Shown here piece by piece: positions 1,088 to 39,856 of a DNA stretch of 45,918 nucleotides. The notes under the pieces are model-generated. The model worked only from the letters and a program-made list of their open reading frames with translations, had not been told where the DNA came from and did not search any database. The stretch comes from Pseudomonadota bacterium (GTDB taxonomy: Bacteria; Pseudomonadota; Gammaproteobacteria; Burkholderiales; Chitinibacteraceae): positions 1-45,918 of the forward strand of contig JAPLQI010000065.1 in assembly GCA_026399755.1 (NCBI GenBank). Direction: 5' to 3'. The position numbers and the translations under genes are program-made. Position 1 is the stretch's first letter, and each line of letters starts with the position of its first letter.

Positions 1088-2263
1088 TTAGCGGCCGAAG
1101 TCGAGGACTTCGGTGATCCATTGATTGGTCACTTCCACTTGGAAGACAGGGTTTTCAGCGGGCGGTACATCGGTAAAACGGATGGTCCAATAAATACGCC
1201 CCTGCTCGATTGCGCTGGCGGTGTTTTTATCCGGGTCCGGAAACACTTCAAAATTAATCACCGCCCCCAGCGCTTTAAGGTCGCGCATAAAAGCATCCAA
1301 ACCGTCAGTCACATCTTTGACATAGGTTTTGGTAATCCCTCGATCCACCGCCCATTGGTGGCCTTTGAGAATCGCATCCATCACCATATCCACGGTGCGC
1401 ACCCGGGTGACAAAGCTCCACTTTGGATCAGCCGACAAGGTACGGTTACCCCAGAGGCGAAAGCCGCCTTCGCGGATAATGGTGGTGATATGCGCTTCAT
1501 TCAGCAGATTGGCTCGGCATGTGGCATCGCCATAGAGATATTCAATCGGGCGCTTGGTCCCCAGCACTTCGCTGAATTCGGTATTAGACGGGCTGGCCCA
1601 GAAACCGACACGGGCATCCTGACGGGCAAACAAACCCGCGGTGGCTGCCGATGCGGGTGCATCGGCTTCGGCGCTCAGTTTGCTATCCCAAACCCGTAAG
1701 CCCGGATCCACCACATAGGCACGCTTACTGCCCAGATTTTTAACAAACGCCAGCGCGGCTTCATCGTCGGTATTGGGGCCGTCAATGATGGCGATTGCCC
1801 GAAGCTTATCGGCCAGTGACACCATGGCAGAAGCCACTGCCGCACTGCTGCTGTGGCCCGGCGCAACAATCAGTCGCGGGGATTGATTGGTTTTAGATTT
1901 TGCATCCAGCAACGCCTGTAAACCGGTGCGCTTACCCTTGGCATCAACGCCACCAATGATGGCACTGGTCAGCTGTGCGGGCGTTTCAGCGGTTTGGCTG
2001 ACGCCAACCGCTACCACTACGGCAGCAGCTTGGGCGTAGATTTCTTTGAGGCGCTTGGCCATCGCGCTCTCTTCGCCAAACTGCGCTACGCCTTCCCGTA
2101 AATTGGTAATCAAAATGGGGGTATCTGCCGCAGCCAAGCCCACACCCGGTGTAAATGTATCGACAATGCCAATAATCGATGAAGACGGCAGCGCAATCAC
2201 ACGCGGGCCTGTATCCACCAGCGTAACCGTCACGCCATGGAAAAAACTACCTTTTCCGGCCAT
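1088..2263 (-). CDS. FI: Tail sheath protein (P2 FI-like)
   Basis: A 391-residue protein of the contractile sheath family, starting MAGKGSFFHGVTVTLVDTGP. Length and the early segment about escaping stress and time-varying names (GIVDTFTPG around residue 35) match P2 FI. The C-terminal third contains the conserved NRTLSADPKWSFVTRVRTVD region seen in sheath proteins, where the fold is best conserved. It is followed by FII within 12 bases. It forms the outer sheath that contracts during injection. An AGGAGG site lies 6 bases upstream of the ATG. Confidence 0.95.
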   Translation of the reverse strand: MAGKGSFFHGVTVTLVDTGPRVIALPSSSIIGIVDTFTPGVGLAAADTPILITNLREGVAQFGEESAMAKRLKEIYAQAAAVVVAVGVSQTAETPAQLTSAIIGGVDAKGKRTGLQALLDAKSKTNQSPRLIVAPGHSSSAAVASAMVSLADKLRAIAIIDGPNTDDEAALAFVKNLGSKRAYVVDPGLRVWDSKLSAEADAPASAATAGLFARQDARVGFWASPSNTEFSEVLGTKRPIEYLYGDATCRANLLNEAHITTIIREGGFRLWGNRTLSADPKWSFVTRVRTVDMVMDAILKGHQWAVDRGITKTYVKDVTDGLDAFMRDLKALGAVINFEVFPDPDKNTASAIEQGRIYWTIRFTDVPPAENPVFQVEVTNQWITEVLDFGR

Positions 2264-13553: not shown

Positions 13554-15467
13554 TTAACGTCGCTTCAAATAGCCAGAGCGCGCCACTCGGCGAGCTGCAA
13601 TGGGAGGGTCAGAAACAAAAGACCCCGCAGTTGCGGGGTCTCGTCGGGGTGATGCGTGGGCTTGCGCCGGTTTGGGCTCATCAAATAAGCCGGTTTGCGC
13701 ATAGCGCATCTTCAGCGCGTTCCAATCGGCCTGCTGAAAACGGTGCAAGCCCATGTAATGCGCCATCGCTAAGCTGTATACGGTTAAATCCAGTACCTCA
13801 TTACGGTCTGATTTGGCCTTGGTCCAGTCGGTGATTTCACGGCCTTTAATAAAGCGCCGAATCTTGCGCTCTACCGTCAGCTGATCGTAGTACTCGCTGG
13901 GCAGATCTTTACTAAAGTGCTGAGCACCCGGCCCGTCGAGCAGCTTAAAGCGGTTATAAAGCCAGTCTTTAGCGGTATCGGTCCCGATCATCCACAGCTC
14001 ACAGCCGCCTTTATCGGTAGTTCCGCGCCAAGTGACATCCACTTTACTGGCCCGCGCCGCCAGAATCGGCCGGCCCCGTTTACTCTCGCCCTTAATCGCC
14101 AGCACATGCCGATAACGGCGCAGCCGACAGAACTGATACACCTCCTGCGTGTGATGGCCACCGGTATCGATGGCCGTCGCAGAAATCCCCATGCCTTCAT
14201 CCAGCATTTCCCATGAGCGCTCTTCGGCCGGATCACACATCATCACCCGATGATCGATGGTCCAGCTTTCCAGCCCTTCGCCCCAGCCTTTAATCAGCAG
14301 CTCCAAGCGGTTGGCCTGCACGTCCACGGAGGCCGTCAGAATCAACACACCCAGCGGAAGACTGCGTAAGGCATAGTCCTCGGCCCGCGCCATCAGCTCG
14401 CTGCCTCGGGTACGCTCTTGCGCGTTATCCCAGACCTTAGCCAGCCGTGTATTGTAAAAAACCTGCATTGGCTCTGGGTCTCCCCGCTGCAAGGCAATGG
14501 CGGCTTTTTCATATTGCTTGAGTAATGAGCCCCAAGACACCCAACCGAGCGGCATATTTAAAGCATTAATCTGGAAGGATTCGGTTTCCCCGTCCCCCAC
14601 CGCACCGGCCCGCCACTCACCAGCGGGCAGCATTGCTGTTTTATGGTGTTCATCAATCAAACAACCGCTGGCAGTACATACATAGTGGGCCTCGCTGTGC
14701 TCGCTATTCCAGCGCAGCTGCTCAAACACCAGCGTCTGAAACTCGCCACAATGCGGGCAGCCTACAAAAAACCGCTGCTGCGTGCCTTCCAAATACAGAT
14801 CATTAATTCGGCTAGAGCCTTCAAGCGTGGGCGAGCTGGAGTAATAAATTTTGGCGTTACGGCCAAAGGTACTGGTGCGCGCCTCGGCCAGATCAACTGG
14901 GTCGCCTTCTTCGTTAACATTGCGCTCCCAGCGATCAATCTCATCGCCGTATAAATATCGCGCACTGACTTCGGCCAGATTGGCCGCCGAGCCTGCGGTG
15001 GTAATCATCAAAGTGCCACCGGAAAATTCTTTGGTATCGATGGTATTGCGGCTGTCGCGGCTACGTGGGGAGGCGACTTTTTCGCGCAGCACGGGAATAG
15101 CATCGATGTTTTTACCAATGCGGCCAGACAAACGCTTTGCCAGGTTTAAGGACGGCTCCAGCGCCAGAATATTGCTGGGCGCCATATGGATTACTGCGCA
15201 CATCCAGTTTAAAAACACCTGCGTCTTCAGCATCTGCGAAGCCCCCATCACCACCACTCGGCGGCAAGGATGCGTCGGAGATAACACCCGCATCACCTGC
15301 TGCGCATACGGCGTGCGACGGGTTAAATACTTGCCTGGCTCAGCGGCGCCCGAATCGGTGGGGATCCGCTGATACTGGTCGGCCCATTCATCAATCCATA
15401 AGGCCGGATCGGGCATCAGGCCAGCAGCAAAGCCCTCCAGATAAGTGGCAAATCCGTCTGCATACAT
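13554..15467 (-). CDS. A: Terminase large subunit (GpA family)
   Basis: A 637-residue terminase of the lambda GpA family. The Walker A-like site GASQMLKT is at about residues 75-82 and the Walker B YLYGDEID at about 171-178. HYVCTASGCLIDEHHKT suggests a zinc-binding element with CPHCG a little earlier. The C-terminal nuclease begins near SVDVQANRLELL and includes ATAIDTGGHHTQ. Length is normal for the family. It translocates DNA and cuts at cos. The C-terminus contains a terminator-like hairpin in its DNA (see separate entry). Confidence 0.95.
   Translation of the reverse strand: MYADGFATYLEGFAAGLMPDPALWIDEWADQYQRIPTDSGAAEPGKYLTRRTPYAQQVMRVLSPTHPCRRVVVMGASQMLKTQVFLNWMCAVIHMAPSNILALEPSLNLAKRLSGRIGKNIDAIPVLREKVASPRSRDSRNTIDTKEFSGGTLMITTAGSAANLAEVSARYLYGDEIDRWERNVNEEGDPVDLAEARTSTFGRNAKIYYSSSPTLEGSSRINDLYLEGTQQRFFVGCPHCGEFQTLVFEQLRWNSEHSEAHYVCTASGCLIDEHHKTAMLPAGEWRAGAVGDGETESFQINALNMPLGWVSWGSLLKQYEKAAIALQRGDPEPMQVFYNTRLAKVWDNAQERTRGSELMARAEDYALRSLPLGVLILTASVDVQANRLELLIKGWGEGLESWTIDHRVMMCDPAEERSWEMLDEGMGISATAIDTGGHHTQEVYQFCRLRRYRHVLAIKGESKRGRPILAARASKVDVTWRGTTDKGGCELWMIGTDTAKDWLYNRFKLLDGPGAQHFSKDLPSEYYDQLTVERKIRRFIKGREITDWTKAKSDRNEVLDLTVYSLAMAHYMGLHRFQQADWNALKMRYAQTGLFDEPKPAQAHASPRRDPATAGSFVSDPPIAARRVARSGYLKRR
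13617..13640 (-). terminator. Terminator-like hairpin embedded in the 3' end of terL
   Basis: GACCCCGCA and TGCGGGGTC form a perfect 9-bp stem with a 2-base loop, followed on the minus strand by UUUUGUUU. It lies inside the large terminase reading frame, about 65 bases before its stop. Confidence 0.6.
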
Positions 15468-19945: not shown

Positions 19946-20067
19946 CAGCGCTCCAGTGTTGCCAACAGCGCCCTGCACAAAGCGCGAGCCGCCTCTTTAC
20001 GCTCACGCGGGCGGGTTTTCCTGATCCGATGAGCCTGAATTTTTAACGCCACCATTCTGAAATTCAT
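19945..20067 (-). CDS. 40-residue basic protein
   Basis: This short gene starts at the ATG at 20067, overlapping the CII-like stop in ATGA, and its TGA shares a base with the next ATG. It encodes MNFRMVALKIQAHRIRKTRP and ends ALCRALLATLER. It is strongly basic and probably helical, so nucleic acid binding is possible. The tight coupling at both ends is the main evidence that it is real. Confidence 0.55.
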   Translation of the reverse strand: MNFRMVALKIQAHRIRKTRPRERKEAARALCRALLATLER

Positions 20068-20546
20068 TTCACCACCGCCGCCCTTACAGCCGCTCGAATC
20101 GTGTTTAATGCGGCAATCTCATCATCGATACAGCGCTCAATCGCGTCGGCCTCTACTGAATTGATTTGCAAATCCTCATACGCATCAGCCAACACACCGC
20201 TTGTCGCCGCCGACACGCCCATATAACGGCGCAACACCTGCCGTGCCATCTGCTCCGGCGTGCCAGGCACAAAGCCCTGCACCAACTGCTGAGCAGGCAC
20301 CACCACATGCCCAGTTAAATCAGCGAGCGATTGCAAAAGCTGCGGCGTCTTGGTTTCTGCAAGCATGTGGAACAGCTGCAAAGCGGTGAATTGATAACGT
20401 GGCAAATTAGGATTGGCAGCGTTATGCATCATCGAAAGCGAGCGATCAAACGTCTCACTCGCGCGACGAATCCCAAAATGACTTGCCAGCGACTGCACCG
20501 CCAGCACTTGCGGGCGATAGTTCACGGCCAATAACTCGTAATCCAT
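20064..20546 (-). CDS. CII-like phage regulatory protein
   Basis: A 160-residue protein that begins after a GGAGATG site. VQSLASHFGIRRASETFDRS followed by NPNLPRYQFTALQLFHMLAE and QLLQSLADLTGHVVV fits the family of phage regulatory proteins annotated as CII-like (CP76 type), with an N-terminal helix-turn-helix and an LT-type helix. It is the first gene after the tR1-like terminator in the Cro operon, where lambda has cII. It probably influences the lysis-lysogeny choice. No DNA target is identifiable. Confidence 0.65.
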   Translation of the reverse strand: MDYELLAVNYRPQVLAVQSLASHFGIRRASETFDRSLSMMHNAANPNLPRYQFTALQLFHMLAETKTPQLLQSLADLTGHVVVPAQQLVQGFVPGTPEQMARQVLRRYMGVSAATSGVLADAYEDLQINSVEADAIERCIDDEIAALNTIRAAVRAAVVK

Positions 20547-20748: not shown

Positions 20749-20973
20749 TCAAGTGGTGGGTTTATCAGTACCGCGCAGGTAGGCCCAATCAACATCAGGG
20801 CGCAAATCCTCGCAGCGGATTTCACCACTGGTAAATTTTTCGACTTGGATGCAGCGATCAGCAGGCCACGGCCTACGGCCAGAAGCCCATTGGTTAACGG
20901 CACCAACGGTCAGATCCATAAAACCAGCCAATTGGCGGCGCAAACTCGGTTCGCTAAGAAGTTTTTCTTTCAT
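20749..20973 (-). CDS. Cro-like repressor (YdaS family)
   Basis: The ATG at 20973 (MKEKLLSEPSLRRQLAGFMD) opens a 74-residue helix-turn-helix protein. RRQLAGFMDLTVGAVNQWAS and GRRPWPADRCIQVEKFTSGE are characteristic of YdaS/Cro proteins. It is divergent from the CI-like gene, across the operator region. It should compete with CI for the palindromic sites and act early in lytic growth. Residues 60-74 (PDVDWAYLRGTDKPTT) form a short tail. Confidence 0.88.
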   Translation of the reverse strand: MKEKLLSEPSLRRQLAGFMDLTVGAVNQWASGRRPWPADRCIQVEKFTSGEIRCEDLRPDVDWAYLRGTDKPTT

Positions 20974-20981
20974 GGGATGGA

Positions 20982-21060
20982 TAATAGCAATGCTATTAAT
21001 ACAAAGCAATAGCAATGTCAGTTGTTTTCATGCAACCAGAGCAAGTAGCATTGCTATTAT
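20982..21060. promoter_or_regulatory. CI/Cro operator region with three palindromic sites
   Basis: A 17-bp palindrome, TAATAGCAATGCTATTA, lies at 20982-20998. A half-conserved copy, AATAGCAATGTCA, is at 21008-21020 and a third, AGTAGCATTGCTATTAT, at 21045-21060. The last one runs into the CI start codon. A possible -35 TTGTTT (21022) and -10 TAGCAT (21046) with an 18-bp spacer would start CI mRNA at its ATG. The same motif recurs at 25,444-25,484. Confidence 0.75.
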
Positions 21061-21607
21061 GGAAAAACCAGCACGAAGAACACTCTCTGACGAAGAGCTC
21101 GCAGCTGCAGCGCGGCTTAGCGACCTATACGAATCAGCAAAACATGCAAGCGGCCTATCGCAAATGGCCCTAGCACTGGCTTGTGGTTGGTCGTCACAAG
21201 GCACGGTGCATCAATACATCAAAGGGAAAATCCCTCTCAATGCCGATGCAATCAACCGATTTGCTGCCTTTTTCTCTGTAAAACCCGCCGAAATCTACCC
21301 CGAGCTAGCCGAAAAACTAGGCATGGAAACAAAGCCACACGCAGTCACAATAGAAAAAGGAATTAGCTATCCCTCAGAAATAGAAAAAATTCTGAACGCA
21401 CTTGTACGCGCCCACGCATGCGGCGTAATCACTCCAGAGTTTGCTGACGCACAAGCAAGAATGTTTCAAGCACTGGCCAACATGGGAACTACCACTCAGC
21501 GCGGCCCACAGCTCGACGCAGATGGAAAAGTCATCATGGGCAATGAGCTCGGCGTAGAAGAAGCGATCTTCAGCCGTAACGAGCAGCCCCAAAAAAAGGT
21601 AGGATAA
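21059..21607 (+). CDS. cI: CI-like repressor (XRE family)
   Basis: The start is the ATG at 21059 (MEKPARRTLSDEELAAAARL); the frame is open far upstream but through the Cro-like gene and operators. The helix-turn-helix is LSQMALALACGWSSQGTVHQ then YIKGKIPLNADAINRFAAFF and VKPAEIYPEL, at about residues 32-85. The C-terminal half is short and lacks a recognisable LexA/S24 protease, so induction by RecA cleavage is not obvious. No ribosome binding site is visible. It probably maintains lysogeny. Confidence 0.88.
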   Translation: MEKPARRTLSDEELAAAARLSDLYESAKHASGLSQMALALACGWSSQGTVHQYIKGKIPLNADAINRFAAFFSVKPAEIYPELAEKLGMETKPHAVTIEKGISYPSEIEKILNALVRAHACGVITPEFADAQARMFQALANMGTTTQRGPQLDADGKVIMGNELGVEEAIFSRNEQPQKKVG

Positions 21608-23519: not shown

Positions 23520-23966
23520 TTACTTAGTATTTGAAGCGGTGCGCATTTCCATTTGTCGCTCAAGCAACTCATCCACACTATCGTGACTAGCCTGCCACGG
23601 CCCATTAAGCACCAAGACCTCTGAGCAGGTAGATTGTAAATGGCCTCGCATATCACGCTGCAGAGCCTGCAATTTAACTTGCTCTTCCAAGATGGCAATT
23701 TGCTTCTCCCAAGCATCAATCTGCAAACCCCCATATTCAGAACGCAAGTGGGCAATCGGCAAAGTCACACAGACCTGCTTAGATAAGGGCGGAGCAAAAT
23801 CAAAGACTGCACCAATGACAACATGAGGCACCGCGTTTAAGCACAAAGGGTAAACGGCAGCGTGAACCTGTGGGGGTATCGGAGGAAGAAGAGCAGCCAT
23901 TCTAAGCAACTCAGGAAGGGGATTAAATACTCGCCCCATTTCTTCGGCAAAACGTTGCTTATCCAT
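23520..23966 (-). CDS. Hypothetical third gene of the ParDE-like operon
   Basis: A 148-residue protein starting MDKQRFAEEMGRVFNPLPEL. Its start overlaps the toxin stop by 8 bases, so it is translationally coupled. A helical region (DAWEKQIAILEEQVKLQALQ) suggests a coiled coil at about residues 84-105. It has no recognised domain. A third gene in a toxin-antitoxin operon can be a regulator, chaperone or cargo; the sequence does not decide. Confidence 0.6.
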   Translation of the reverse strand: MDKQRFAEEMGRVFNPLPELLRMAALLPPIPPQVHAAVYPLCLNAVPHVVIGAVFDFAPPLSKQVCVTLPIAHLRSEYGGLQIDAWEKQIAILEEQVKLQALQRDMRGHLQSTCSEVLVLNGPWQASHDSVDELLERQMEMRTASNTK

Positions 23967-24258
23967 TTTTTACTTCTTTGCTGTGCGCCACCCTCAATAT
24001 ATACAACGCCCCAGCATGAGCGCTCACATACCTGTAGTGAATGACATAGGCAGCAGCCCCAAACGGTACGACCAAGCGATGCAAACCCACGACACTTTCG
24101 ACCGGCTTCCCCATGTGGGGGTGATCGGCCAAACGACGAAACGCCTCTGCAAGCGTCTTACCTACTCGCCCCGCTGCTTGGGGATTTTTTGCCTTAACAA
24201 ACTCACGAAGCCTAAGTAAATCCGCACCCGCGTTTTCTGTAACCATCACACGCGGCAT
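23959..24258 (-). CDS. parE: RelE/ParE family toxin
   Basis: A 99-residue protein of the ParE type. VTENAGADLLRLREFVKAKN then RVGKTLAEAFRRLADHPHMG and the VVPFGAAAYVIHYRYVSAHA core match the family, including the typical RL.DHP.MG and Y.I.YRY strands. It starts inside the antitoxin gene (13-base overlap). Such toxins act on DNA gyrase or mRNA; which one applies cannot be told here. It may stabilise the prophage. Confidence 0.88.
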   Translation of the reverse strand: MPRVMVTENAGADLLRLREFVKAKNPQAAGRVGKTLAEAFRRLADHPHMGKPVESVVGLHRLVVPFGAAAYVIHYRYVSAHAGALYILRVAHSKEVKNG

Positions 24259-24530
24259 TGCGGGGCCTCCTGTTCGCCATCCGTTCCCCAGCTATCCAGC
24301 CAAGCCGCAACCTCTTCACCGACCATATGCAAGCCGCTTGCCTCATACTGTTGCCACGAGGCAAGCGCTTCTTGTATTTCTTTTTGCTCTGCCTCGCACC
24401 GCTCTACATATTGAGTCAAAGCATCCCGCACAACAAACGCCAGCTTACGGTTCTGTTGTTCGGCGACGGCTTCCGCCCGAGCCCTTACGCTTGGTTCAAT
24501 CCTCAGATTGATACTTGCAGCCCTATGCAT
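24246..24530 (-). CDS. parD: ParD/RHH-type antitoxin
   Basis: A 94-residue protein with a ribbon-helix-helix start: SINLRIEPSVRARAEAVAEQ and QNRKLAFVVRDALTQYVERC. The C-terminal 40 residues (QEALASWQQYEASGLHMVGE and EEVAAWLDSWGTDGE) would wrap the toxin. It precedes the toxin gene, the normal antitoxin-first order. AGGAGGTGA lies just upstream of the ATG. The palindrome at 24545-24559 is the probable site for self-repression. Confidence 0.87.
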   Translation of the reverse strand: MHRAASINLRIEPSVRARAEAVAEQQNRKLAFVVRDALTQYVERCEAEQKEIQEALASWQQYEASGLHMVGEEVAAWLDSWGTDGEQEAPQCRV

Positions 24531-24728: not shown

Positions 24729-25361
24729 ATGAGCACCACACCCACTACGGTTATACAAAAATCACTTGATCATCTAAACACCAAAAAAGCCACAGAACAC
24801 TTGCTTGGTATTTGCCACGGGCTAACGTCTGATCAACATCTGAATGATCAAGAAATCCATTTTCTTAGCACATGGATTAAACAAAATCCCGCAGCCTGCA
24901 CTGCATGGCCAGGGACAACGATTGCACGCCGTGTGCATGAAATTTTAGCCGACGGCATTATCACGGAAGAAGAACGTGCGTCACTGCTCGTCACACTCAC
25001 CCAGATCTGCAGCAGCGATTTTGAAAACACTGGCGATACACAGGCCACGCTCAATATTCCATTTGACGACGACCCGCATATTATTTTCCCCGAGCGGGCA
25101 TTTTGCTTCACCGGCGTTTTTTACTTTGGCACACGGGCCAATTGCGAAAGAGCAACAGAAAAGCACCGCGCCATGACTAAAAGCAATGTCAGCCAAAGCA
25201 TCGACTATCTTGTTATTGGTAGCCAGATCAATCCAGACTGGGCCCATACCAGCTTTGGCCGAAAAATAGAATCCGCCATCAGCTACATTGAAAAAGGCCA
25301 CGGCATCGCGATTATCAGCGAGCAGCAATGGACCGAAGCACTTAGCCATCTCAATAAGTAG
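24729..25361 (+). CDS. BRCT-domain protein
   Basis: A 210-residue protein with two parts. Residues 15-100 form helices with LLGICHGLTSDQHLNDQEIH and EILADGIITEEERASLLVTL, resembling a TerB-like or EF-hand-like helical module. Residues 120-208 are a BRCT domain: RAFCFTGVFYFGTRANCERA, then VSQSIDYLVIGSQINPDWAH, then GIAIISEQQWTEAL. BRCT domains read damaged or processed DNA and phosphoproteins; bacterial ones are mostly in DNA ligase. The gene stands alone with its own terminator. Its role in the phage is unknown. Confidence 0.8.
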   Translation: MSTTPTTVIQKSLDHLNTKKATEHLLGICHGLTSDQHLNDQEIHFLSTWIKQNPAACTAWPGTTIARRVHEILADGIITEEERASLLVTLTQICSSDFENTGDTQATLNIPFDDDPHIIFPERAFCFTGVFYFGTRANCERATEKHRAMTKSNVSQSIDYLVIGSQINPDWAHTSFGRKIESAISYIEKGHGIAIISEQQWTEALSHLNK

Positions 25362-25377
25362 CCGAATAAGCCCCACC

Positions 25378-25403
25378 CAAACCGCCCTCGAGGCGGTTTT
25401 TTT
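25378..25403 (+). terminator. Terminator after BRCT gene
   Basis: AAACCGCC and GGCGGTTT form an 8-bp stem with a CTCGA loop, followed by seven T residues. It isolates the BRCT gene from the operon at 25.5 kb. Confidence 0.85.
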
Positions 25404-25443
25404 ACGTCCTCAAAATCTTCACTCCAAAAATTTCACAACAAAA

Positions 25444-25484
25444 TAATAGCATTGCTATTTACTTAAAAGAGCATTGCTATTATA
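25444..25484 (+). promoter_or_regulatory. Second cluster of CI-type operators, upstream of the 25.5-27.4 kb operon
   Basis: TAATAGCATTGCTATTT (25444-25460) has a perfect AATAGCA-T-TGCTATT core, and GAGCATTGCTATTATA (25469-25484) is a second copy. Both match the sites at 20982-21060. The second copy contains a possible -10 TATTAT at 25478-25483. Binding by the CI-like repressor would silence the operon starting at 25525. Confidence 0.75.
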
Positions 25485-25524
25485 TTGACGTCATCGCACC
25501 ACAACACCCACAGAGAAACTAACG

Positions 25525-25749
25525 ATGAAAGTTCTAAACGCCACCCTGACTTACGACCGCAACGGCATGCCGCTTGCGCAAATTGAGTCGGCGCTTGGCA
25601 ACGGCATGGAGTGCAACGCCGCCGGTTTACGCGAGCTGGCCAATGCGATTAACGCCATCGCCACTCTCGCCGACGCCATGCCTCAGCCTAAGCAGCGCAA
25701 AGACACACTAAAAAACCACGCCGAGCTGGTTTGGCACCCATTCGCGTAA
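25525..25749 (+). CDS. Small hypothetical protein, first gene of CI-controlled operon
   Basis: A 74-residue protein starting MKVLNATLTYDRNGMPLAQI, with LRELANAINAIATLADAMPQ as an amphipathic helix in the middle. It begins about 40 bases after the second operator. A GAGAAACTAACG leader gives a weak ribosome binding site. Function unknown; the place is that of an early lytic gene. Confidence 0.65.
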   Translation: MKVLNATLTYDRNGMPLAQIESALGNGMECNAAGLRELANAINAIATLADAMPQPKQRKDTLKNHAELVWHPFA

Positions 25750-25776
25750 GCAACCCGATACACCCAAGGAAAAATC

Positions 25777-26064
25777 ATGTTTATAGGCACACCCGAAACC
25801 AACACCCTTTCCCAAGCCGTTGTTCACGGCCTTGGCTGGCAAGGTATTCACTGCACAGATGCAAAGGGCAAACCAGCCCGCTTCGCCATCCTTGACGAGA
25901 GCGGCAACATTCTTGAAGAAGGCGCGGATCTAGCCCGCGAAGTGTGCGCCGTGGCGATTACGGCTTATCGGAATTTTCAAATAGGCAACGGGCATTTAAA
26001 GATCCACACCAGCCCAACCGGCATTCAAACCATCGAAGCAAACAACAGGCGCAAATCAGCATGA
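25777..26064 (+). CDS. Small hypothetical protein
   Basis: A 95-residue protein starting MFIGTPETNTLSQAVVHGLG after an AAGGAAAA ribosome binding site. The middle reads KPARFAILDESGNILEEGAD, a short beta hairpin, followed by LAREVCAVAITAYRNFQIGN. Its stop overlaps the start of the next gene in ATGA. No domain identified. Confidence 0.65.
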   Translation: MFIGTPETNTLSQAVVHGLGWQGIHCTDAKGKPARFAILDESGNILEEGADLAREVCAVAITAYRNFQIGNGHLKIHTSPTGIQTIEANNRRKSA

Positions 26065-26237
26065 GGAAGTGGCGGATTCGGTACTTTTTGCCCAGCGAGC
26101 AGCCCAAGCACATGGCCACGCTATTTATTAACGCGGCCACGCCAGCCAAAGCATTAGAAGACGGCAACGAGGAATTGAAACGGCTCTATCAGCTCAACCC
26201 CGCCGCGCTGGCGGCAACGATAGAGCCGCAGAACTAA
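26061..26237 (+). CDS. 58-residue hypothetical protein
   Basis: The start is the ATG at 26061 overlapping the previous stop. The product begins MRKWRIRYFLPSEQPKHMAT and contains TPAKALEDGNEELKRLYQLN. It is small and basic at the N-terminus. Coupling to the previous gene supports translation. It is followed by the iteron array. Function unknown. Confidence 0.6.
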   Translation: MRKWRIRYFLPSEQPKHMATLFINAATPAKALEDGNEELKRLYQLNPAALAATIEPQN

Positions 26238-26294
26238 ACCCCTGCGTACAACCCGTTGCCCACAGCGGCTTGTGCGAAGTGATTTAGAAGAAAA

Positions 26295-26376
26295 CTAAAC
26301 ATTTTCTAAACATTTTCTAAACAAAATCTAAACACTTTTCAAAGCTTCTAAACACTTTCTAAACAGAATCTAAACA
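26295..26376. repeat. Array of 11-bp-phased CTAAACA repeats (candidate centromere-like site)
   Basis: CTAAACA occurs at 26295, 26306, 26317, 26328, 26348, 26359 and 26370. The first four and last three are each exactly 11 bp apart, with a 20-bp gap between the two groups. Linkers are A/T-rich. The array ends one base before the start codon of the StbA-like gene. Plasmid partition or stabilisation proteins such as R388 StbA bind direct repeats with this period in front of their own operon. Confidence 0.75.
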
Positions 26377-26377
26377 A

Positions 26378-26722
26378 ATGGCCGACTTGCTTGAGGAATT
26401 AGCGAAAGGTAAACCACAGAGCAAAGCGGCCAGATTACGCGCAGCGCTGCCCGATATCGATGCGGCATTAGCCGATGGATATAGCCACAAAGAAATACTG
26501 GCCATCCTCAATCAAAGCGGCCTCGACCTCAGCTTTGAGGTTTACCAAACTACACTTTTCAGAATCAGGAAACCACAGAAAAAGGAAAAACCCCGTGACC
26601 CAGCGACACCAACCCCCGCCAAAGAAACACCGGCAGCAGCAACACCAGCAGCAACAAACCCCACAAATGGCAAAAAGTCATTTGTTTACGACAAAACACC
26701 ACCAATCAACATTTGGGAATAA
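26378..26722 (+). CDS. StbA/TraK-like DNA-binding protein
   Basis: A 114-residue protein. Residues 14-66 (SKAARLRAALPDIDAALADG, then GYSHKEILAILNQSGLDLSF and YQTTLFRIRK) form a helical DNA-binding domain that resembles small plasmid proteins such as R388 StbA or RP4 TraK, encoded before a TraL-like ATPase. Residues 70-100 are rich in proline, threonine and alanine, a flexible linker or low-complexity tail. It starts right after the iteron array and has no ribosome binding site. It probably binds the array and regulates itself. The family match is by pattern and gene order. Confidence 0.65.
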   Translation: MADLLEELAKGKPQSKAARLRAALPDIDAALADGYSHKEILAILNQSGLDLSFEVYQTTLFRIRKPQKKEKPRDPATPTPAKETPAAATPAATNPTNGKKSFVYDKTPPINIWE

Positions 26723-26726
26723 AGCA

Positions 26727-27449
26727 ATGAATCAGATCTATCACTTTATTTTGCAGGGCAAAGGCGGCGTAGGCAAAACGCTAACATCCACATTCATCGC
26801 TCAATTTGAGCGAACAAAAACGGCCAATGTATTCTGCGCAGACACCGACCCGGTAAACGATTCATTCAGCCGCTATAAAGCGTTGAATGTGCAAAGCATT
26901 AATATATTGAATCAAAATAACGAAATAGACTCTCGAGCATTTGATTCATTATTTGAGCAGCTACTTGAACACGACGGCCCAGCCGTTATTGATAACGGCG
27001 CGTCAACGTTTATTCCCTTATCCGCCTATCTTGTTGATAACGGCATTATCGAAATGCTGCAGGAAGCAGGAAAGACAGTTTATATCCATACAATCTTGAC
27101 TGGCGGTCAGGCAATGGATGACACCGTAAATGGATTCTTTTCAATAATTAAAAACCACAATGTAAATATTGTGGTTTGGCAAAATGAATTCTTTGGCGAA
27201 GTCATTAAAAACGGCAAGCGATTTACTGATTTAAAAATATACACAGACAATAAAGAGCGCATTCAAGGAATTATCACCATCCCGCAACGCAATGCAGCGA
27301 CTTATGGTAAAGACCTTGAATTAATGACCAGCAATGCGCTGACATTCGATGAAGTAGCCATATCAGATCTATTCACCGCCATCCCGCGCAATCGCATCAA
27401 AACCATCCGCAACGATATCTTTCAGCAGCTAGAAGCCGCCGGCCTGTAA
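26727..27449 (+). CDS. StbB/TraL-like P-loop ATPase (ParA superfamily)
   Basis: The start is the ATG at 26727, five bases after the previous stop; the longer open frame overlaps the previous gene. The 240-residue protein begins MNQIYHFILQGKGGVGKTLT, a deviant Walker A of the ParA type, followed by CADTDPVNDSFSRYKALNVQ and DGPAVIDNGASTFIPLSAYL, which match plasmid TraL/StbB proteins closely in style. FTDLKIYTDNKERIQGIITI and LTFDEVAISDLFTAIPRNRI are also typical. These ATPases act in plasmid positioning or transfer. Confidence 0.85.
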   Translation: MNQIYHFILQGKGGVGKTLTSTFIAQFERTKTANVFCADTDPVNDSFSRYKALNVQSINILNQNNEIDSRAFDSLFEQLLEHDGPAVIDNGASTFIPLSAYLVDNGIIEMLQEAGKTVYIHTILTGGQAMDDTVNGFFSIIKNHNVNIVVWQNEFFGEVIKNGKRFTDLKIYTDNKERIQGIITIPQRNAATYGKDLELMTSNALTFDEVAISDLFTAIPRNRIKTIRNDIFQQLEAAGL

Positions 27450-27497: not shown

Positions 27498-27515
27498 ATG
27501 AATACAGAAAGCATC
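27498..27515 (+). pseudogene. Start of a gene truncated at the IS200/IS605 insertion
   Basis: GAGGACACC followed by ATGAATACAGAAAGCATC is a good ribosome binding site and start 48 bases after the StbB-like stop, but the frame runs straight into the IS end. In R388 a third gene stbC follows stbB. The rest could have been lost by the IS insertion, or cut off at the phage attachment site. Joining across the IS gives only a very short frame. Confidence 0.35.
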
Positions 27516-27700
27516 TTGACATCCTCCCCTACCTCTCGTTAGCGCTTCGCGCATAACTCGCCAGACAAGCTGGAAAGGAAGGGGATTCCTACTGCGGTGA
27601 CTTAAAATCTAAACCACTCACTTCGGTAGGTTCTTGCTTCACCGCATAGCCTTACTGCGCTACGCTCCACAAACTAACAAGCGTTGTCCACGCTCTAAAA
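27516..27700 (-). ncRNA. Probable omega RNA (TnpB guide RNA), extent approximate
   Basis: TnpB proteins use an RNA made from the 3' end of tnpB and the adjacent element end. Here that is the minus-strand segment down to 27516, which folds into the GGAATCCCC...GGGG hairpin region. The guide would be the flanking sequence past the end, starting GATGCTTTCTG. Boundaries are inferred, not seen. Confidence 0.4.
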
Positions 27701-28811
27701 CATTGATCGCGCCGACTAGATCGGCGTTATTTTCGTAGCCACATTCGACGCACTCGAACTTGGCTTGCGTCTTGCGATTATCGCCGGATATATGGCCACA
27801 CGCCGGACACGTTCGGCTGGTGTTGTGCGGCGGAACCGCGATGAGATGTCCGCCTTTCCACCCCAGTTTGTAGTCCAGTTGGCGGCGAAATTCACCCCAA
27901 CCCTGATCGAGAATGGCCCGATTCAGGCCGGACTTCTGCCGTACTTTCTTGCCGTGCGTTTCGGCGTTGCCCTTGCTGGACTTGGACATATTCCGTACCT
28001 GCAAATCTTCGATACATACAATCGCGTGGTTTTGGCTGATCGCTGTTGAAGCTTTGTGCAGATAGTCCTTGCGGGCATTGCCGATGTCGATGTGAACTTG
28101 GGTGACTTTGGCTTTCGCTTTTTTCCAATTGGCGCTGAACTTTACTTTCTTTGCCATGCGGCGCTGGTATTTAGCCAGTCGTTGCTGGTGTTTTTTGAAG
28201 CTGCTCAGCGGGTCGAGGTGGCTACCGTCGCTTAGCGTAACGAAACGGGCAATGCCCATATCCAAACCCACAATGCCGCCGGTTGGCTGAATCGCTTCCA
28301 CTTCACGCCGTGTTTGAATCGACACAAACCACTTGCCACCGGACTGGCTGATCGTCACATTCCGTAGTTCGCCCAGCGCATCGCGGGAATGGCGATAACG
28401 CAACCAGCCCAGCTTAGGCAAGAAGATGCGGCCATTGGCCTGATCGAGTTTGATTTGCTTCGGGTCGGGGTAGCGGAAACTGTCGCCCATTCCTTTCTTC
28501 TTAAAACGTGGGAAATCCGCCCGTTTTTCGAAGAAGTTTTTGTAAGCCCGCTCCAAGTCCTTGAACGTTTGCTGTAACGGATGGACTGGTGAATCTTTGA
28601 GCCACGGCGTTTCTGATCCATTGCGCCAAGCTGTTAATTGCTTAGCCATTGCCACGTAGCCAATAAACTTGTTACCGGCTTCATGATTCTTTTGTTGGAC
28701 ATCCAGCGCCTTGTTATAAGCGAACCGACACGACCCAGCGAAGCGACGCATTTTTAGTGCTTGCTCACCATTGGGCTGTAGTTCGTATTTGAAGGCTTGA
28801 AGACGTTCCAT
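27660..28811 (-). CDS. tnpB: RNA-guided endonuclease TnpB
   Basis: The start is the ATG at 28811 (MERLQAFKYELQPNGEQALK); a GTG lies three codons upstream. The 383-residue protein seems intact. N-terminal helices with RRFAGSCRFAYNKALDVQQK are typical. The RuvC nuclease residues are D in GGIVGLDMGIARF, E in AIVCIEDLQVRNM, and D in ENNADLVGAINVL. A zinc ribbon CPACGH and CVECGY lies between the last two. TnpB cuts DNA next to the target pentamer and favours retention of the element. Confidence 0.95.
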   Translation of the reverse strand: MERLQAFKYELQPNGEQALKMRRFAGSCRFAYNKALDVQQKNHEAGNKFIGYVAMAKQLTAWRNGSETPWLKDSPVHPLQQTFKDLERAYKNFFEKRADFPRFKKKGMGDSFRYPDPKQIKLDQANGRIFLPKLGWLRYRHSRDALGELRNVTISQSGGKWFVSIQTRREVEAIQPTGGIVGLDMGIARFVTLSDGSHLDPLSSFKKHQQRLAKYQRRMAKKVKFSANWKKAKAKVTQVHIDIGNARKDYLHKASTAISQNHAIVCIEDLQVRNMSKSSKGNAETHGKKVRQKSGLNRAILDQGWGEFRRQLDYKLGWKGGHLIAVPPHNTSRTCPACGHISGDNRKTQAKFECVECGYENNADLVGAINVLERGQRLLVCGA

Positions 28812-28834
28812 AACAGCCACTATACTCTTGGTCT

Positions 28835-29251
28835 ATGACAACCGACAACGACATTCGCCATGGTAGACACTGTGTTTTTATGATGCACGTTCATTTGGTC
28901 TTTGTGACCAAGTATCGACGTAATGTGTTCACCAAAGAAATACTAGACGACTTACGCCCCATCTTTACGGGTGTATGCACTGACTTTGAGGCTGAATTGG
29001 TAGAATTTGATGGGGAGGACGATCATGTCCACCTACTAGTGAACTATCCCCCTAAAGTGGCCGTTTCTAATTTGGTAAACAGCTTAAAAGGGGTTTCAAG
29101 CCGAATGATTCGCAAGAAAAACTATCCGAGTATTAAGCAAAAACTGTGGGGCGGGGCACTCTGGACGCCTAGCTATTTTGCGGGGAGTTGTGGTGGCGCG
29201 CCGATTGAGGTGATTCGGCAATACATAGAGCAACAACAAACCCCGCATTAA
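28835..29251 (+). CDS. tnpA: Transposase TnpA (HUH, Y1)
   Basis: A 138-residue Y1 transposase. CVFMMHVHLVFVTKYRRNVF opens the core, DGEDDHVHLLVNYPP holds the HUH metal-binding pair, and EVIRQYIEQQ supplies the catalytic tyrosine. WTPSYFAGSCGGAPIE is also conserved. The protein looks complete, so the element may be mobile. It is divergent from tnpB with 23 bases between the start codons. Confidence 0.95.
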   Translation: MTTDNDIRHGRHCVFMMHVHLVFVTKYRRNVFTKEILDDLRPIFTGVCTDFEAELVEFDGEDDHVHLLVNYPPKVAVSNLVNSLKGVSSRMIRKKNYPSIKQKLWGGALWTPSYFAGSCGGAPIEVIRQYIEQQQTPH

Positions 29252-29336: not shown

Positions 29337-30926
29337 CTACCCCGCCAGCGTTTCCCCGCGCTGCCACGCCCCAGTGCGGCGATTTACCCGAATATATCGC
29401 CGTACTCCACCCCGCGTAATCAGCAGCAAATCCATCCAAGTGTTTTTAGGGTCTGGCTGCAATCCCAAGCGGAATATTTGAATTTGTGAAAAGGTATCCG
29501 CCACCAGCTTACGCGCCTTAATACGAATATCAGCATCCAGACCCAGCACACCTTCGCGCAGGCCCGACCACTGGTCCGCCATTTCTGGCGATTGCACCTG
29601 CGATATCGCTACCAGCTCGCGCTCAGCAGCAACAGCTTCCGCCCTGTGGCTGTCCAGCACCGCTTCCAGCTCCCGTGCCTTACGCAAAAACGCCAGCGGC
29701 ACTGCACCATCATCCGCAGCGAGCGCATCAGTTACCCGCTGCAGCTGCTGCTCAACTTCCACAATTTTTTGCCTAAGCCCACTCAAATTGGCCCGCACCC
29801 GCACATCTGCACCGACACCCGACAACAGATCCGCCAGATTAAACTGATCACCGCAGTAATCCAGCAGCGCCTTTTCTATCGCTGCAGTCGAAAGAGACCC
29901 ACCCACCGGGCACTGATTCACAGAGCACTTATTAACACATAGCAAACGCCGCTCCTGGTACCGCTTGCCACATGCCCGCGCAAAACTAGAAATAGCACTT
30001 CCACAGTAGCCACAGGTAGCAATGCGCAACCCTGTAATAATTGATGGATTAGTACCTTTGCCTATACGCCGCCCGCGCTCTGAACGCAGCCGCTGCAATT
30101 CAGCAAATTCATCAGACGAAATGAGCGCAGGATAATACCCCTCCATCCTAAACGACTCACCACCGACTTCGATCGTATGCACACCCGCCAGCGCTTCAGA
30201 CTTCACCATACGATTAACGAGCAGGGCGCTCGCTAACCCGCCTGTCAGCGACCAATTACGCTCTTGCAGCATCCGAGCAATTATCATACCGCCATACCCC
30301 GCACGGTATTGATCGAGTACGAAATGCACCATTTCAACCCGCTCAGGGATCAACTCCCAGCGATTATCAACATAGCACAGCCACACTGGATCTTTACCAG
30401 CACGAATCCGCCTCTTAGACTCACCAGACTGAAAGCGTAAGCACTGCTGCTTAATTGCCGCGACCACCCGCTTGCTTTTACTTTCTGACTCTTCATTAGC
30501 CCGAATCATTACCATTAGCGCATAAAGTAAATCCATCGGATTTTCGCGCAACGTCTCCTGGCTATACTCTCGGCCATCTGCGACCGTCACAACCCGCACA
30601 CCGGCGCTAATGATGGATGCAAATTGCGCCTGAGCCTGAATCGCCTGCTCACGGCTCAGACGATCCAACTGCTCGACAATCAACACAGAGCCAGGTGCAA
30701 TTAATCCGGCTTCAATCGCTCGTAAGAAAGCACCAAGCGCGCCCGTTTTAACGTGAGCCCCGTGAAAAGCGCTTAGCCCTTCATCGCGCAAACTCAGCGA
30801 CTCATCAAGCGCCAGCCCGCGCTCAGCGGCCCACGCCGCAGCATAAGCTTTTTGACGTGCAGCAGATGTACCAGCAGCTTGTTTAGGGGAAGAAAAACGG
30901 AGGTAAGAATAGACTTTGACTGCCAT
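29337..30926 (-). CDS. int: Large serine recombinase (prophage integrase)
   Basis: A 529-residue large serine recombinase. KVYSYLRFSSPKQAAGTSAA places the catalytic serine at about residue 12; VEQLDRLSREQAIQ follows. The recombinase domain holds VDNRWELIPERVEMVHFVLD and YRAGYGGMIIARMLQERNWS. A zinc domain has CGYCGSAISSF and then LLCVNKCSVNQCPVG. A coiled coil (LRQKIVEVEQQLQRVTDALA) lies near residue 380, as usual. It is the last gene of prophage 1, next to the attachment site. Confidence 0.95.
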   Translation of the reverse strand: MAVKVYSYLRFSSPKQAAGTSAARQKAYAAAWAAERGLALDESLSLRDEGLSAFHGAHVKTGALGAFLRAIEAGLIAPGSVLIVEQLDRLSREQAIQAQAQFASIISAGVRVVTVADGREYSQETLRENPMDLLYALMVMIRANEESESKSKRVVAAIKQQCLRFQSGESKRRIRAGKDPVWLCYVDNRWELIPERVEMVHFVLDQYRAGYGGMIIARMLQERNWSLTGGLASALLVNRMVKSEALAGVHTIEVGGESFRMEGYYPALISSDEFAELQRLRSERGRRIGKGTNPSIITGLRIATCGYCGSAISSFARACGKRYQERRLLCVNKCSVNQCPVGGSLSTAAIEKALLDYCGDQFNLADLLSGVGADVRVRANLSGLRQKIVEVEQQLQRVTDALAADDGAVPLAFLRKARELEAVLDSHRAEAVAAERELVAISQVQSPEMADQWSGLREGVLGLDADIRIKARKLVADTFSQIQIFRLGLQPDPKNTWMDLLLITRGGVRRYIRVNRRTGAWQRGETLAG

Positions 30927-30985
30927 AGCGGCTATGTTTTCGAGTTAGCGAGGCCGCATCATATCCCAAATACAGATTGCGTATC
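30927..30985. other. Probable prophage attachment junction
   Basis: The serine recombinase start (30926) and the point where the ClpP-like frame loses similarity to its family (after about LSVLKDT, near 30970-30985) are about 50 bases apart, so one attachment site must lie here. Without the other end of the prophage the core cannot be defined. Confidence 0.6.
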
Positions 30986-31297
30986 TTTTAGCACAGAGAG
31001 GAATATGTGCGCTCCTGCGCTGGCCACCCAGCCGCTACCTATCATATTCACTGGCGCACGAATAAATTTGATGATGTCGTGTATCACATCGCCCGATTCC
31101 ACATGGCCACCGGGGGATGAGATCAGCACATTGATCGGCTTGGCCGATTCGGTCGCCAAAGCAATCAAGCGCCGTGCTGTATCTTTGGCCAGCACATCAT
31201 TGATAGGGCCAATAATAAAAACAAAACGGGATTCAAACGATTTTTCTTCCAGAAAGGCATCTTGCGAGCCCCCTGCTACCGCCGCTTCTTCAGCCAT
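30959..31297 (-). pseudogene. clpP: ClpP-like protease gene, truncated by prophage integration
   Basis: The first 100 residues are a normal ClpP-family start: SRFVFIIGPINDVLAKDTAR, then INVLISSPGGHVESGDVIHD, and GSGWVASAGAHIF with the catalytic serine in VASAG. ClpP proteins are about 200 residues, and the part with the catalytic histidine and aspartate is missing. The frame ends DTQSVFGI at phage DNA. The 3' half should be at the other end of the prophage, left of this window. An inactive product is expected unless it folds as a regulator. Confidence 0.85.
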
Positions 31298-33684: not shown

Positions 33685-34461
33685 TTAGAAGTTGCGGATG
33701 ATCAGCTCGCCTGATTTATCGTTGCTTCTGCCTTTGCCGCCGACCGTGTAGTTAATCTCTACCCGCTCTATTGTCAGCCCATCAAATACCTCGCGCATCT
33801 CTGGGATGTCGTTGACGGAGATGATCATGTGGCCAGTGATCGACTTTGCCAGCTCGGCCATGCGCTGGTACTCATGAAGGCCAAACTCTACGCCATAGCC
33901 TGCGGTGCCCCAATACGGTGGGTCACAATAGAATAGCGTGTGTTCTCGGTCGTACTTCTTAATGCATGCGGCCCAGTCTAGGTTCTCTATATAAGTACGG
34001 CTCAAGCGTAAATGAGCCGCTGATAGATCTTCCTCAAGCCTGAGCAAATTCAGCCTTGGCGGCGTCGTGGTGGCGGTACCGAAAGTCTGGCCGTCCACCT
34101 TGCCGCCGAAGGCCATCTTTTGCAGGTAAAAGAAACGCGCAGCCCGCTGGATATCGGTCAGCGTTTCTTCGGGAGTGATCTGTAGCCATTTAAAGATCTG
34201 CCTTGAAGTCAGCGCCCACTTAAACTGGCGGACGAACTCCTCAAGGTGGTGGCGGACGATTCTGTATAAATTAACCAACTCTCCGTTCACATCATTAATC
34301 ACTTCAACTTTTACGGGGGCTTTCAAAAAATACAGCGCCGCAGCGCCGCAAAATGGCTCTACATAGCATGAATGCTCAGGAAACAGCGGCAGGATAGATT
34401 TGGCTAATCTGCGCTTTCCACCCATCCACGGAATAATTGGTGTTGAATTGATTTGTATCAT
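33685..34461 (-). CDS. dam: DNA adenine methyltransferase (D12 class, Dam-like)
   Basis: The start is the ATG at 34461 (MIQINSTPIIPWMGGKRRLA), following AGAGG; a TTG lies six codons upstream. The 258-residue protein has the SAM-binding WMGGKRRLAK, the EPFCGAAALYF motif, and the catalytic DPPYWGT near residue 186. LQKMAFGGKVDGQTFG is the typical target-recognition region. It methylates adenine, perhaps at GATC-like sites, to protect phage DNA or affect regulation. It is the last gene of the prophage 2 operon. Confidence 0.93.
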   Translation of the reverse strand: MIQINSTPIIPWMGGKRRLAKSILPLFPEHSCYVEPFCGAAALYFLKAPVKVEVINDVNGELVNLYRIVRHHLEEFVRQFKWALTSRQIFKWLQITPEETLTDIQRAARFFYLQKMAFGGKVDGQTFGTATTTPPRLNLLRLEEDLSAAHLRLSRTYIENLDWAACIKKYDREHTLFYCDPPYWGTAGYGVEFGLHEYQRMAELAKSITGHMIISVNDIPEMREVFDGLTIERVEINYTVGGKGRSNDKSGELIIRNF

Positions 34462-34503
34462 TCTGCAAGCCTCTTTCAATACATGAAAAAACCCTTTAGG
34501 CTT

Positions 34504-34598
34504 GCCTTTCCGTAGCTACGGTTAGGCAGTCTTTGGGGTGACTTGCAGGCGTGTTCTGCGGGTCAGCTGGCCAGTCGGGTGCTCCAACACCCGGCTGG
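34504..34598. other. Two compact hairpins between fibre-related gene and dam
   Basis: The first (34504-34527) pairs GCCT-TT-CCGTAG with CTACGG-TT-AGGC with almost no loop. The second (34571-34598) pairs CCAG-t-CGGGTG with CACCCG-g-CTGG around a 6-base loop. Neither has a U run. They lie in the 151-base gap before dam and may set mRNA ends or be part of a small RNA. Confidence 0.45.
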
Positions 34599-34612
34599 TC
34601 GCTGTCTTCAAA

Positions 34613-35026
34613 CTACTGAACTACGCCCGTTAATATTTGCTGCAGGCGTGTGGCAGTGATCAAGCCTTTCTCTTCCAGATAAGCCAGCGCATAGCGTGTT
34701 GATTGCAGGCTCAGATCTATATGCGTAATGCGCGGGTCTTCAACGATGCTCATAAAGTCTTCAACCATTGGATCAGTAGCTCTCAGCTGCTTGATCGCCA
34801 CGCGCTCGTTGGGATGAAACAGCAGCTTGAACTCAATCGGCGACAGGGTGAGTGCGGCAATGGGCGGTGGTAGCGGCGGATGAAACGCGCTGCCATCATA
34901 GAGATCCCCCAGCTTTACCTTGCTGTCGTCGGCCAGCGCGACTGTGCATTCCAAGCCCGCCATTTCCTCGTCGGGAGTCTCTGCGATATGGTCAACACGC
35001 CCAGCTCGAATGTATGCGTGATTCAT
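34613..35026 (-). CDS. Phage tail-associated hypothetical protein
   Basis: I set the start at the ATG at 35026 (MNHAYIRAGRVDHIAETPDE) with AAGGGG upstream. The 137-residue product has LTLSPIEFKLLFHPNERVAI then ATDPMVEDFMSIVEDPRITH and STRYALAYLEEKGLITATRL, a pattern I know from small proteins following tail fibres in P2- and Mu-like phages. It may assist the fibre. No enzyme motif is seen. Confidence 0.65.
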   Translation of the reverse strand: MNHAYIRAGRVDHIAETPDEEMAGLECTVALADDSKVKLGDLYDGSAFHPPLPPPIAALTLSPIEFKLLFHPNERVAIKQLRATDPMVEDFMSIVEDPRITHIDLSLQSTRYALAYLEEKGLITATRLQQILTGVVQ

Positions 35027-35036
35027 TGCCAGCCCC

Positions 35037-37129: not shown

Positions 37130-37137
37130 ATAACCTC

Positions 37138-39788: not shown

Positions 39789-39808
39789 AGCGCCATGATG
39801 GCGCTATG
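39786..39808. repeat. Perfect inverted repeat over the W start codon
   Basis: CATAGCGCC and GGCGCTATG form a 9-bp stem with a 5-base loop. The last three bases on the minus strand are the W start codon. This could sequester initiation or be a protein-binding site. Confidence 0.55.
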
Positions 39809-39856
39809 TTTTGAGGAGGGATATTAAAGCGGTTTAAGACTCGTATGCTAGTAAAC

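Follow-up and report, generated by a model that had tools for sequence, protein, structure and literature searches.

A StbAB-like gene pair behind an 11-bp-phased box array in an Iodobacter prophage, and its relatives in other phage contigs

Background

In the available portions of the reports on plasmid R388, StbA is described as a transcriptional repressor that also reduces transfer (PMC3098194, PMC3937220) and that represses its own promoter 50-fold (PMC3937220). StbA is needed for plasmid stability, and StbB is needed for conjugation and not for stability. The repeats of R388 are 9 bp long and spaced by 2 bp, that is, they have an 11-bp period. The effect of StbA on transfer works through these repeats in cis, and the authors propose that repeat-bound StbA may serve to pair the plasmid's copies with the chromosome of the host; according to the same part of that report, StbA has no homology to ParB proteins (all PMC3098194). 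In the Corynebacterium prophage CGP3, as far as the available text of the reports goes, the protein AlpA binds repeats 5' of alpAC, and efficient replication of the phage depends on both AlpA and AlpC (PMC4446434, PMC5539076).

Here we analyse a gene pair of the StbAB kind that lies in a prophage. By "the window" we mean the whole stretch of DNA under analysis, which is one complete contig (G000:C135) of 45,918 bases from a 4.9-Mb genome that we label G000. The host genus is Iodobacter, and the comparison set for the genus comprises nine genomes, among them G000, G001 and G005.

Results

The original prediction placed the gene pair in a phage integrated in the chromosome, and the content of the window bears this out. 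The structural region lies to the left of the cassette and includes the large subunit of the terminase (13554..15467, minus strand; phrog_15, E=5.5e-214); a contractile tail sheath is encoded at 1088..2263 (minus strand; phrog_23, E=2.6e-106). There follow a CII-like activator (20064..20546, minus strand), recognised through its G005 homolog as phrog_101, and a CI-like repressor (20849..21607, plus strand; HTH_3 and HTH_31), the G005 homolog of which matches phage repressor PHROGs. On the far side of the cassette we find a large serine integrase (29337..30926, minus strand; Resolvase and Recombinase domains; phrog_95, E=8e-61), and next to it the N-terminal half of a clpP-like host gene (30959..31297, minus strand; named by eye), which is cut at the integration site. 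This gene is interrupted after about 102 residues, and its C-terminal half was found on contig C16 of G000; in the other eight Iodobacter genomes the clpP-like frames have 195-211 aa, one of them with an inner TAA. With structural genes, repressor, integrase and split host gene all present, the element is an integrated tailed phage. The left contig end falls within the phage, the far end of which is known solely as the clpP-like half on C16.

Directly 5' of the cassette lie four genes of the same orientation (24729..26237, plus strand: 24729-25361, 25525-25749, 25777-26064 and 26061-26237), the first of which encodes a BRCT-like protein (phrog_3989 at 1.7e-64). The cassette lies past the repressor region and before the integrase and runs in the same direction as its neighbours, which fits early expression.

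Several further elements were seen in and around the prophage. The BRCT-like protein has a weak PADLOC match (PDC-S48, E=0.0016), and within the early region a candidate pair of a RelE/ParE-type toxin and its antitoxin was recognised by eye from the translation (23959-24530, opposite strand). Between stbB and the integrase, an insertion of the IS200/IS605 type (27498-29251) has landed in the start of an open reading frame right after stbB. It consists of TnpB (27660..28820, minus strand) and an IS200-type TnpA (28835..29251, plus strand), both named by eye from open reading frame and translation. About 2.4 kb past the split clpP-like gene there is a second set of tail genes (33685-45654), which by eye looks P2-like and like another prophage. 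Beside the C-terminal clpP-like half (L084:7199-12543, G000:C16) there are phospholipase-D-like and VgrG-like genes, again by eye, which are perhaps cargo from the far end of the phage. Neither a match to an Rfam family nor a tRNA was found within the window.

The box array had been described as seven CTAAACA repeats in phase at 11 bp, four and then three, ending one base before a small gene, and each of these details proved exact. The four boxes of the first group, which are putative StbA sites, occupy 26295..26334 (plus strand; starts 26295, 26306, 26317 and 26328), and the three of the second group occupy 26348..26376 (plus strand; starts 26348, 26359 and 26370). The spacing is exactly 11 bp inside each group, and 20 bp separate the groups. 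The last box ends at 26376, one base from the ATG of stbA at 26378. The array is above chance expectation in shuffled sequences. CTAAACA occurs 11 times in the window; shuffled versions contain 4.47 on average, and 11 was reached in none of 100. Over the 140 bp that lead up to the ATG, five links join identical 7-mers at a distance of 11 bp, a number that none of 5000 dinucleotide shuffles attained. Across the 4.9-Mb genome the pattern CTAAACAN4CTAAACA has five matches, all within the array, and the reversed-pattern control has none.

Immediately 5' of the boxes there is an imperfect inverted repeat (CCCTGCGTACA...TGTGCGAAG, 26238..26284). A hairpin-like element within it, CTTCGCACA-N-TGTACGCAG (26242-26279), is present in eight copies in four of the nine Iodobacter genomes, the other copies being on G000:C70, G000:C141 (two), G001:C174 (two), G006 and G007. 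The two copies on G000:C141 are about 525 bp apart with apparently one gene between them, and the element is possibly an intergenic signal of phages.

The gene that follows the boxes (stbA/traK-like; 26378..26722, plus strand) encodes a protein of 114 aa with a predicted helical DNA-binding domain at about residues 12-66 and a tail that ends in W-E. It had been proposed as a small StbA-like DNA-binding protein, and the solved domain of R388 StbA (PDB 7PC1) is indeed matched by the single sequence with E=1.1e-6. Profiles gave 4.1e-9 with the three Iodobacter sequences and E=6.5e-17 with 14 homologs. The NCBIfam equivalog StbA_2 gives the protein 20.1 of 100 bits, which is below the cut-off, as is its score for DUF5338; at E<=0.01, StbA_2 matches eight of the 14 aligned small proteins, the one from the window included. 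No PHROGs family was found for it. The AF2 model has a pLDDT of 86-91 at residues 21-60 and a mean of 70, with a poorly predicted tail, and Foldseek, queried with this weak model, returned no hit at E<=0.001, nor was 7PC1 retrieved. From the sequence comparisons, we firmly assign the small protein to the StbA family.

The second gene (stbB/traL-like; 26727..27449, plus strand) begins four bases past the stop of stbA and encodes a 240-aa ATPase of the ParA/SIMIBI type with the motifs GKGGVGKT, DTDPVN and VIDNGA. A program-made open reading frame, 26475-27449, starts too early and was replaced by 26727-27449; with this start, both genes of the pair look genuine. The predicted kinship with StbB/TraL-type P-loop ATPases is confirmed by a match to the TraL family NF010461 over residues 6-238 (264 bits, E=8.2e-79; the NCBIfam cut-off of 360 is not reached). 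The AF2 model (pLDDT 95) retrieves SegA (2e-6), ParF (2e-5) and MinD (4e-5) with Foldseek. StbB is a full-length TraL relative by sequence and has a predicted ATPase fold of the SegA/ParF/MinD type. Among the PHROGs it has weak ParA-like matches only. In the plasmid collection 1247 records match, all with less than 60% identity (44-51% among the 30 matches listed). K12, G13, G14, G16, K17, D39, D41, N44 and D89 are invariant across 30 aligned StbB sequences.

No third gene of the stbC/traM kind was recognised after stbB, where the IS200/IS605-type insertion cuts off an open reading frame that starts at 27498; in G005 the genes downstream of stbB were assessed for stbC by eye only. Searching the window with 22 markers of plasmid transfer and replication (E<=1e-3) gave no match, while the positive controls gave 19 and 7 rows, and the same 22 markers had no match in the stretches fetched from G005 and G001. 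Neither a relaxase nor MobC nor T4SS genes, which mark the conjugative cassette proper, adjoin the pair in the window. Since adjoining transfer genes were searched for and not found, we file the two proteins in their own families and the cassette as a variant.

The stbAB pair is present in three of the nine Iodobacter genomes, namely G000 (the window), G005 and G001. Identity to the proteins of the window is 62-65% in G005 and 51-62% in G001, and dN/dS (NG86) is 0.09-0.22 in four of six pairs, those with unsaturated dS. In G005 the cassette lies in a 4.4-Mb contig between 16-bp repeats at 2995701 and 3037790, with a dusA-like gene (by eye) and a tyrosine integrase as neighbours; terminase, tape-measure and repressor genes accompany it. 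The G001 copy is found at the edge of a set of head and tail genes that looks P2-like (by eye, from the families); an att repeat around it was searched for and not found, so that its position inside a prophage is only probable. The array of G005 has seven exact boxes in an unbroken 11-bp row and that of G001 has five exact boxes and, by reading, two degenerate ones, and the 4-bp spacers between the boxes differ among the three cassettes. Across the nine genomes CTAAACAN4CTAAACA has 14 matches, all in these three cassettes, and the control has none. A genome-wide search for the PF03432 relaxase found none in G000 or G001 and one in G005, on a different contig. Just past the end of the G005 prophage (G005:C1:3038086-3039102) there are frames that by eye resemble pieces of a second integrase, which suggest an earlier integration at the same site.

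Narrow queries (single proteins and the first alignment) gave no confirmed relative in virus contigs. They suggested a module restricted to Iodobacter, an idea that was dropped once broader alignments were used. An alignment of 30 rows gave 19 IMG/VR contigs, and a phage-weighted alignment gave 25, which contain all 19. The box pattern itself was found in seven virus contigs, none with a convincing match to StbA or StbB (best E 0.28, using both proteins joined as one query). In all of the 19 contigs a small gene lies directly 5' of stbB; in L133 and L135 this gene is of a distant Desulfovibrio type.

In a quick tree of 54 StbB rows there is a phage-rich branch of 23 rows (SH-aLRT 91, no bootstrap), made up of 15 IMG/VR contigs, the three Iodobacter copies, two plasmid rows and three loci from chromosomes (T4SS genes lie near one of these). 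Five contigs outside the tree (L126, L128, L129, L137 and L152) have a StbB that is 95-100% identical to rows in it, which brings the branch to 20 of the 25 IMG/VR contigs; the other five (L130, L133, L135, L162 and L166) lie outside the branch. L135 and L133 were not counted as phage-borne because the former adjoins a TrbB gene and the latter groups with Desulfovibrio loci. The three Iodobacter StbBs form one clade in a tree of 42 rows (97/91), and in the 54-row tree they are unresolved from an Undibacterium plasmid. The row G056b, which contained stops and had a very long branch, was present in the first tree and was omitted from the second. Separately, two tandem StbA-like genes precede stbB in L130 (1710-2313), a virus contig of 10 kb from a metagenome, which the tree groups with plasmids of the Comamonas type.

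Phage genes are present in the records of several of these contigs. Terminase phrog_15 was found in three of the 19 records (L131, L132 and L135) and weak matches to phrog_2 in six (L124, L125, L126, L128, L129 and L138), and tape measure, sheath, tail fibre, head or portal proteins are present in L121, L123, L127, L134, L137 and L139. Two proteins of L136 were scanned and neither matched a named structural family; the scan of L122 was limited to two terminase searches, and L149, L151, L152 and L164 lie outside the structural-gene survey. All four of the contigs whose cassette neighbours were examined (L122, L125, L132 and L136) encode integrases there. Homologs of the early genes of the window (18515, 20849, 21670, 21998, 24729 and 25777) are present in 12 of the 19 loci; homologs of 24729 in L136 and L138 and of 25777 in L128 and L129 are close to the cassette. 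When the phage proteins of the window were used as markers, none of 42 loci matched, and since even L027 (G001:C70), which lies beside phage genes, was missed, this marker set is insensitive. Among the matches listed for 122 larger proteins from ten loci without transfer markers, there were a few integrase and tail-fibre PHROGs and one head protease. Neither protein matched any of 50,697 deposited phage records, also when further TraL-type queries were included. Taken together, the recurrence of phage-borne StbAB suggests that temperate phages use the cassette on their own free DNA.

We then quantified the periodicity in the 120 bp before stbA, using periods from 7 to 18 and 400 shuffles, with the stretch 600-720 bp upstream as a control. 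Only rows with a plausible small upstream gene entered the StbA alignment and the period tests, and 22 of the 23 loci of the phage branch were tested, L129 being omitted as its upstream stretch is the same as that of L128. A best period of 11 was obtained for 21 of the 22 phage-branch loci, 3 of 10 plasmids and 3 of 20 other loci; in 20, 2 and 1 of them, respectively, no more than 4 of the 400 shuffles attain the period-11 value. In the control stretch the best period is 11 in 4 of 22, 1 of 10 and 0 of 19, and the shuffle test is passed by 1 of 22, 0 of 10 and 0 of 19. Since several loci are nearly identical, there are fewer independent cases than these counts. L132 is the sole exception in the phage branch, with no 11-bp signal. 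A stricter count of exact 6-mers at lag 11 is zero for L124, L126 to L129, L132, L133 and L135; the windowed measure finds the period in L124, L126, L127 and L128, and it is absent in L132, L133 and L135. The 11-bp-phased box array is a hallmark of the cassettes of the phage branch.

By reading, the boxes are TTAGCA (L121 and L134), ATGAGCA (L123 and L138), TTTGCA or TCTGCA (L131) and ATAACA (L139), and these boxes, like CTAAACA of Iodobacter, all end in CA. Arrays may lie farther upstream in plasmids, for example with ATAAGCA or ATCAGCA in Comamonas and CACTGCA in Agrobacterium. On the Undibacterium plasmid pUKW01 (L108), an array of TACGACA with a period of 10 bp and not 11 bp was seen before a traK-like gene. 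Three StbBs of the phage branch (L134, L138 and L139) have GKGGC[FL]KS in place of GKGGxGKS as Walker A motif and VIDTGA in place of VIDNGA; this would fit a loss of ATPase activity in these three.

Discussion

We propose, with a probability of roughly 0.6, that the gene pair is an autoregulated StbAB cassette adapted to phages, which would position excised or newly entered phage DNA in analogy to AlpAC of CGP3. StbA would bind all seven boxes, whose helical phasing would place them on the same side of the double helix. As the boxes reach the start of stbA itself, StbA is probably, like its R388 counterpart, the repressor of its own operon. On the boxes it would build a centromere-like nucleoprotein complex, on which StbB, as a ParA-like ATPase, would act. 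An integrase frees the phage from any need of partition for as long as it stays in the chromosome. The likely moment for the complex to matter is therefore that of the free circle, after entry and before integration and again after excision. StbAB would then keep the copies of the phage genome attached to the nucleoid, with a spacing suited to replication, and distribute them among the daughter cells. The cassette is present in phages of different tail types and thus behaves as an exchangeable module. What counts against this proposal is that StbB is retained without conjugation genes, though R388 StbB serves conjugation. Further points against it are the altered Walker A motif of three phage-branch StbBs, the lack of a match among the 50,697 phage records, the NCBIfam scores of both proteins below cut-off, the Foldseek search with the weak StbA model, the plasmid and chromosomal loci inside the phage-rich branch, the absence of an att repeat around the G001 copy and the lack of an 11-bp signal in L132.

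On the other hand, StbA could be an autorepressor of the operon and nothing else, with the pair as cargo that acts off the phage DNA, for example by interfering with the transfer or maintenance of resident plasmids with the same boxes (deletion of stbA raised the transfer of R388 50-fold). The boxes do extend to the start of stbA, R388 StbA both represses transcription and lowers transfer in the available parts of the reports (PMC3098194, PMC3937220), and the cassette is near the integrase, a place at which accessory genes are common in phages. We nevertheless regard the cargo explanation as unlikely: the transfer effect of R388 StbA acts in cis through the repeats, by the accessible part of that work, CTAAACAN4CTAAACA is found nowhere else in the nine Iodobacter genomes searched, PADLOC has no match to StbA or StbB, and seven boxes seem more than simple autorepression would need. 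If the element were instead a phage-plasmid that rarely integrates, StbAB would be a partition system of the usual kind, at work while the element is a plasmid. The StbBs of the Undibacterium and Janthinobacterium plasmids are close to those of phages, and StbA stabilises the plasmid R388 (PMC3098194, available portion). The integrase and the split clpP-like gene argue against such a lifestyle, as do the G005 copy between its repeats in a 4.4-Mb contig and the integrases beside all four IMG/VR cassettes examined for neighbours; TrfA and the RepB-family primase, the two initiator-type proteins searched for, are unmatched in the window. We think it quite improbable.

The original prediction also offered a repurposed mobilisation module, an option that lost ground in this analysis. 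It would mean that a phage captured the oriT-side traKL end of a plasmid, perhaps permitting transfer in trans. The closest named relatives are indeed plasmid traKL genes, in the fetched records mostly near relaxase, MobC or transfer genes, and 28 of 40 relatives from genomes have at least one marker of plasmid transfer or replication in the fetched flank (in one case the primase alone). In contrast, none of the 22 markers matched in the window or in the G005 and G001 stretches, no third stb gene was recognised, and the PF03432 relaxase is absent from G000 and G001 and has its lone G005 copy on another contig. The low dN/dS and the occurrence of the cassette in several phage types also speak against a relic, to which we give very little credence.

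To our knowledge, little is understood of how the free DNA of a temperate phage is positioned and passed on in the interval from its entry to its integration. A compact recurring module of two genes with a readable box array makes the placement of phage DNA directly testable. A natural StbAB without adjoining conjugation genes lends itself to a study of which part StbA plays and which StbB, and the arrays, which vary in sequence between phages at a constant period, are a ready set for the recognition of DNA by StbA. As there is no PHROG for StbA, the PHROG matches of StbB are weak and none of the deposited phage records searched matches, the module may go unnoticed in annotation or be labelled as plasmid DNA.

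Conclusions

The layout proposed at the outset, repeats, small gene and ATPase as in R388, holds in its order, and the repeats of R388 also have an 11-bp period (PMC3098194, available portion). Like stbABC of this IncW plasmid, the cassette has the StbA gene first, the StbB ATPase second and direct repeats of 11-bp period upstream. The two differ in the repeats, which in the accessible description of R388 are two sets of five TTGCATCAT as opposed to the CTAAACA boxes here, and in the motif of StbB, which is SGXXGK[T/S] in R388 and of the KGGXXK[T/S] type in the window. Moreover, stbC and oriT adjoin the pair in R388, whereas in the prophage of the window no stbC and no conjugation markers were recognised. 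The traKL(M) leader operon of RP4/RK2 and other MOBP plasmids shares the gene order traK-traL, and StbB of the window groups with TraL; in RK2, however, the 200 bp that precede traK lack an 11-bp signal, and the operon adjoins traJ and traI. The tails of StbA differ as well, ending in W(E) in the phage branch and in DLI in the plasmids of Comamonas, Xylella and Verminephrobacter, while the Janthinobacterium plasmid has a W end like the phages.

Type I ParABS systems of phage-plasmids share the predicted ParA-like ATPase fold (ParF and SegA in Foldseek), but here the partner is of the StbA type and the element integrates. The original prediction knew of no described phage with this arrangement under CI control. 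A precedent exists in part, as AlpAC of CGP3 is an actin-based analogue (PMC4446434, available portion); for StbAB itself, the matches listed from the open-access literature include no paper on a phage-encoded pair. According to the accessible parts of the reports, AlpAC/alpS also belongs to an integrated prophage of Corynebacterium and has repeats 5' of the operon that are bound by the adaptor, and adaptor and motor are co-transcribed and expressed early after excision (PMC4446434, PMC5539076). Its motor is actin-like, a relative of ParM, whereas that of the window is a ParA/SIMIBI ATPase, and we claim no kinship in sequence. Whether integrating phages of several tail types carry a StbAB lineage of their own, as a ParA-type segregation machine for their free genomes, is a question on which we see even chances. 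The hallmark of such a lineage would be 11-bp-phased boxes that end in CA and abut stbA, and it would be the ParA-type counterpart to the actin-based AlpAC.
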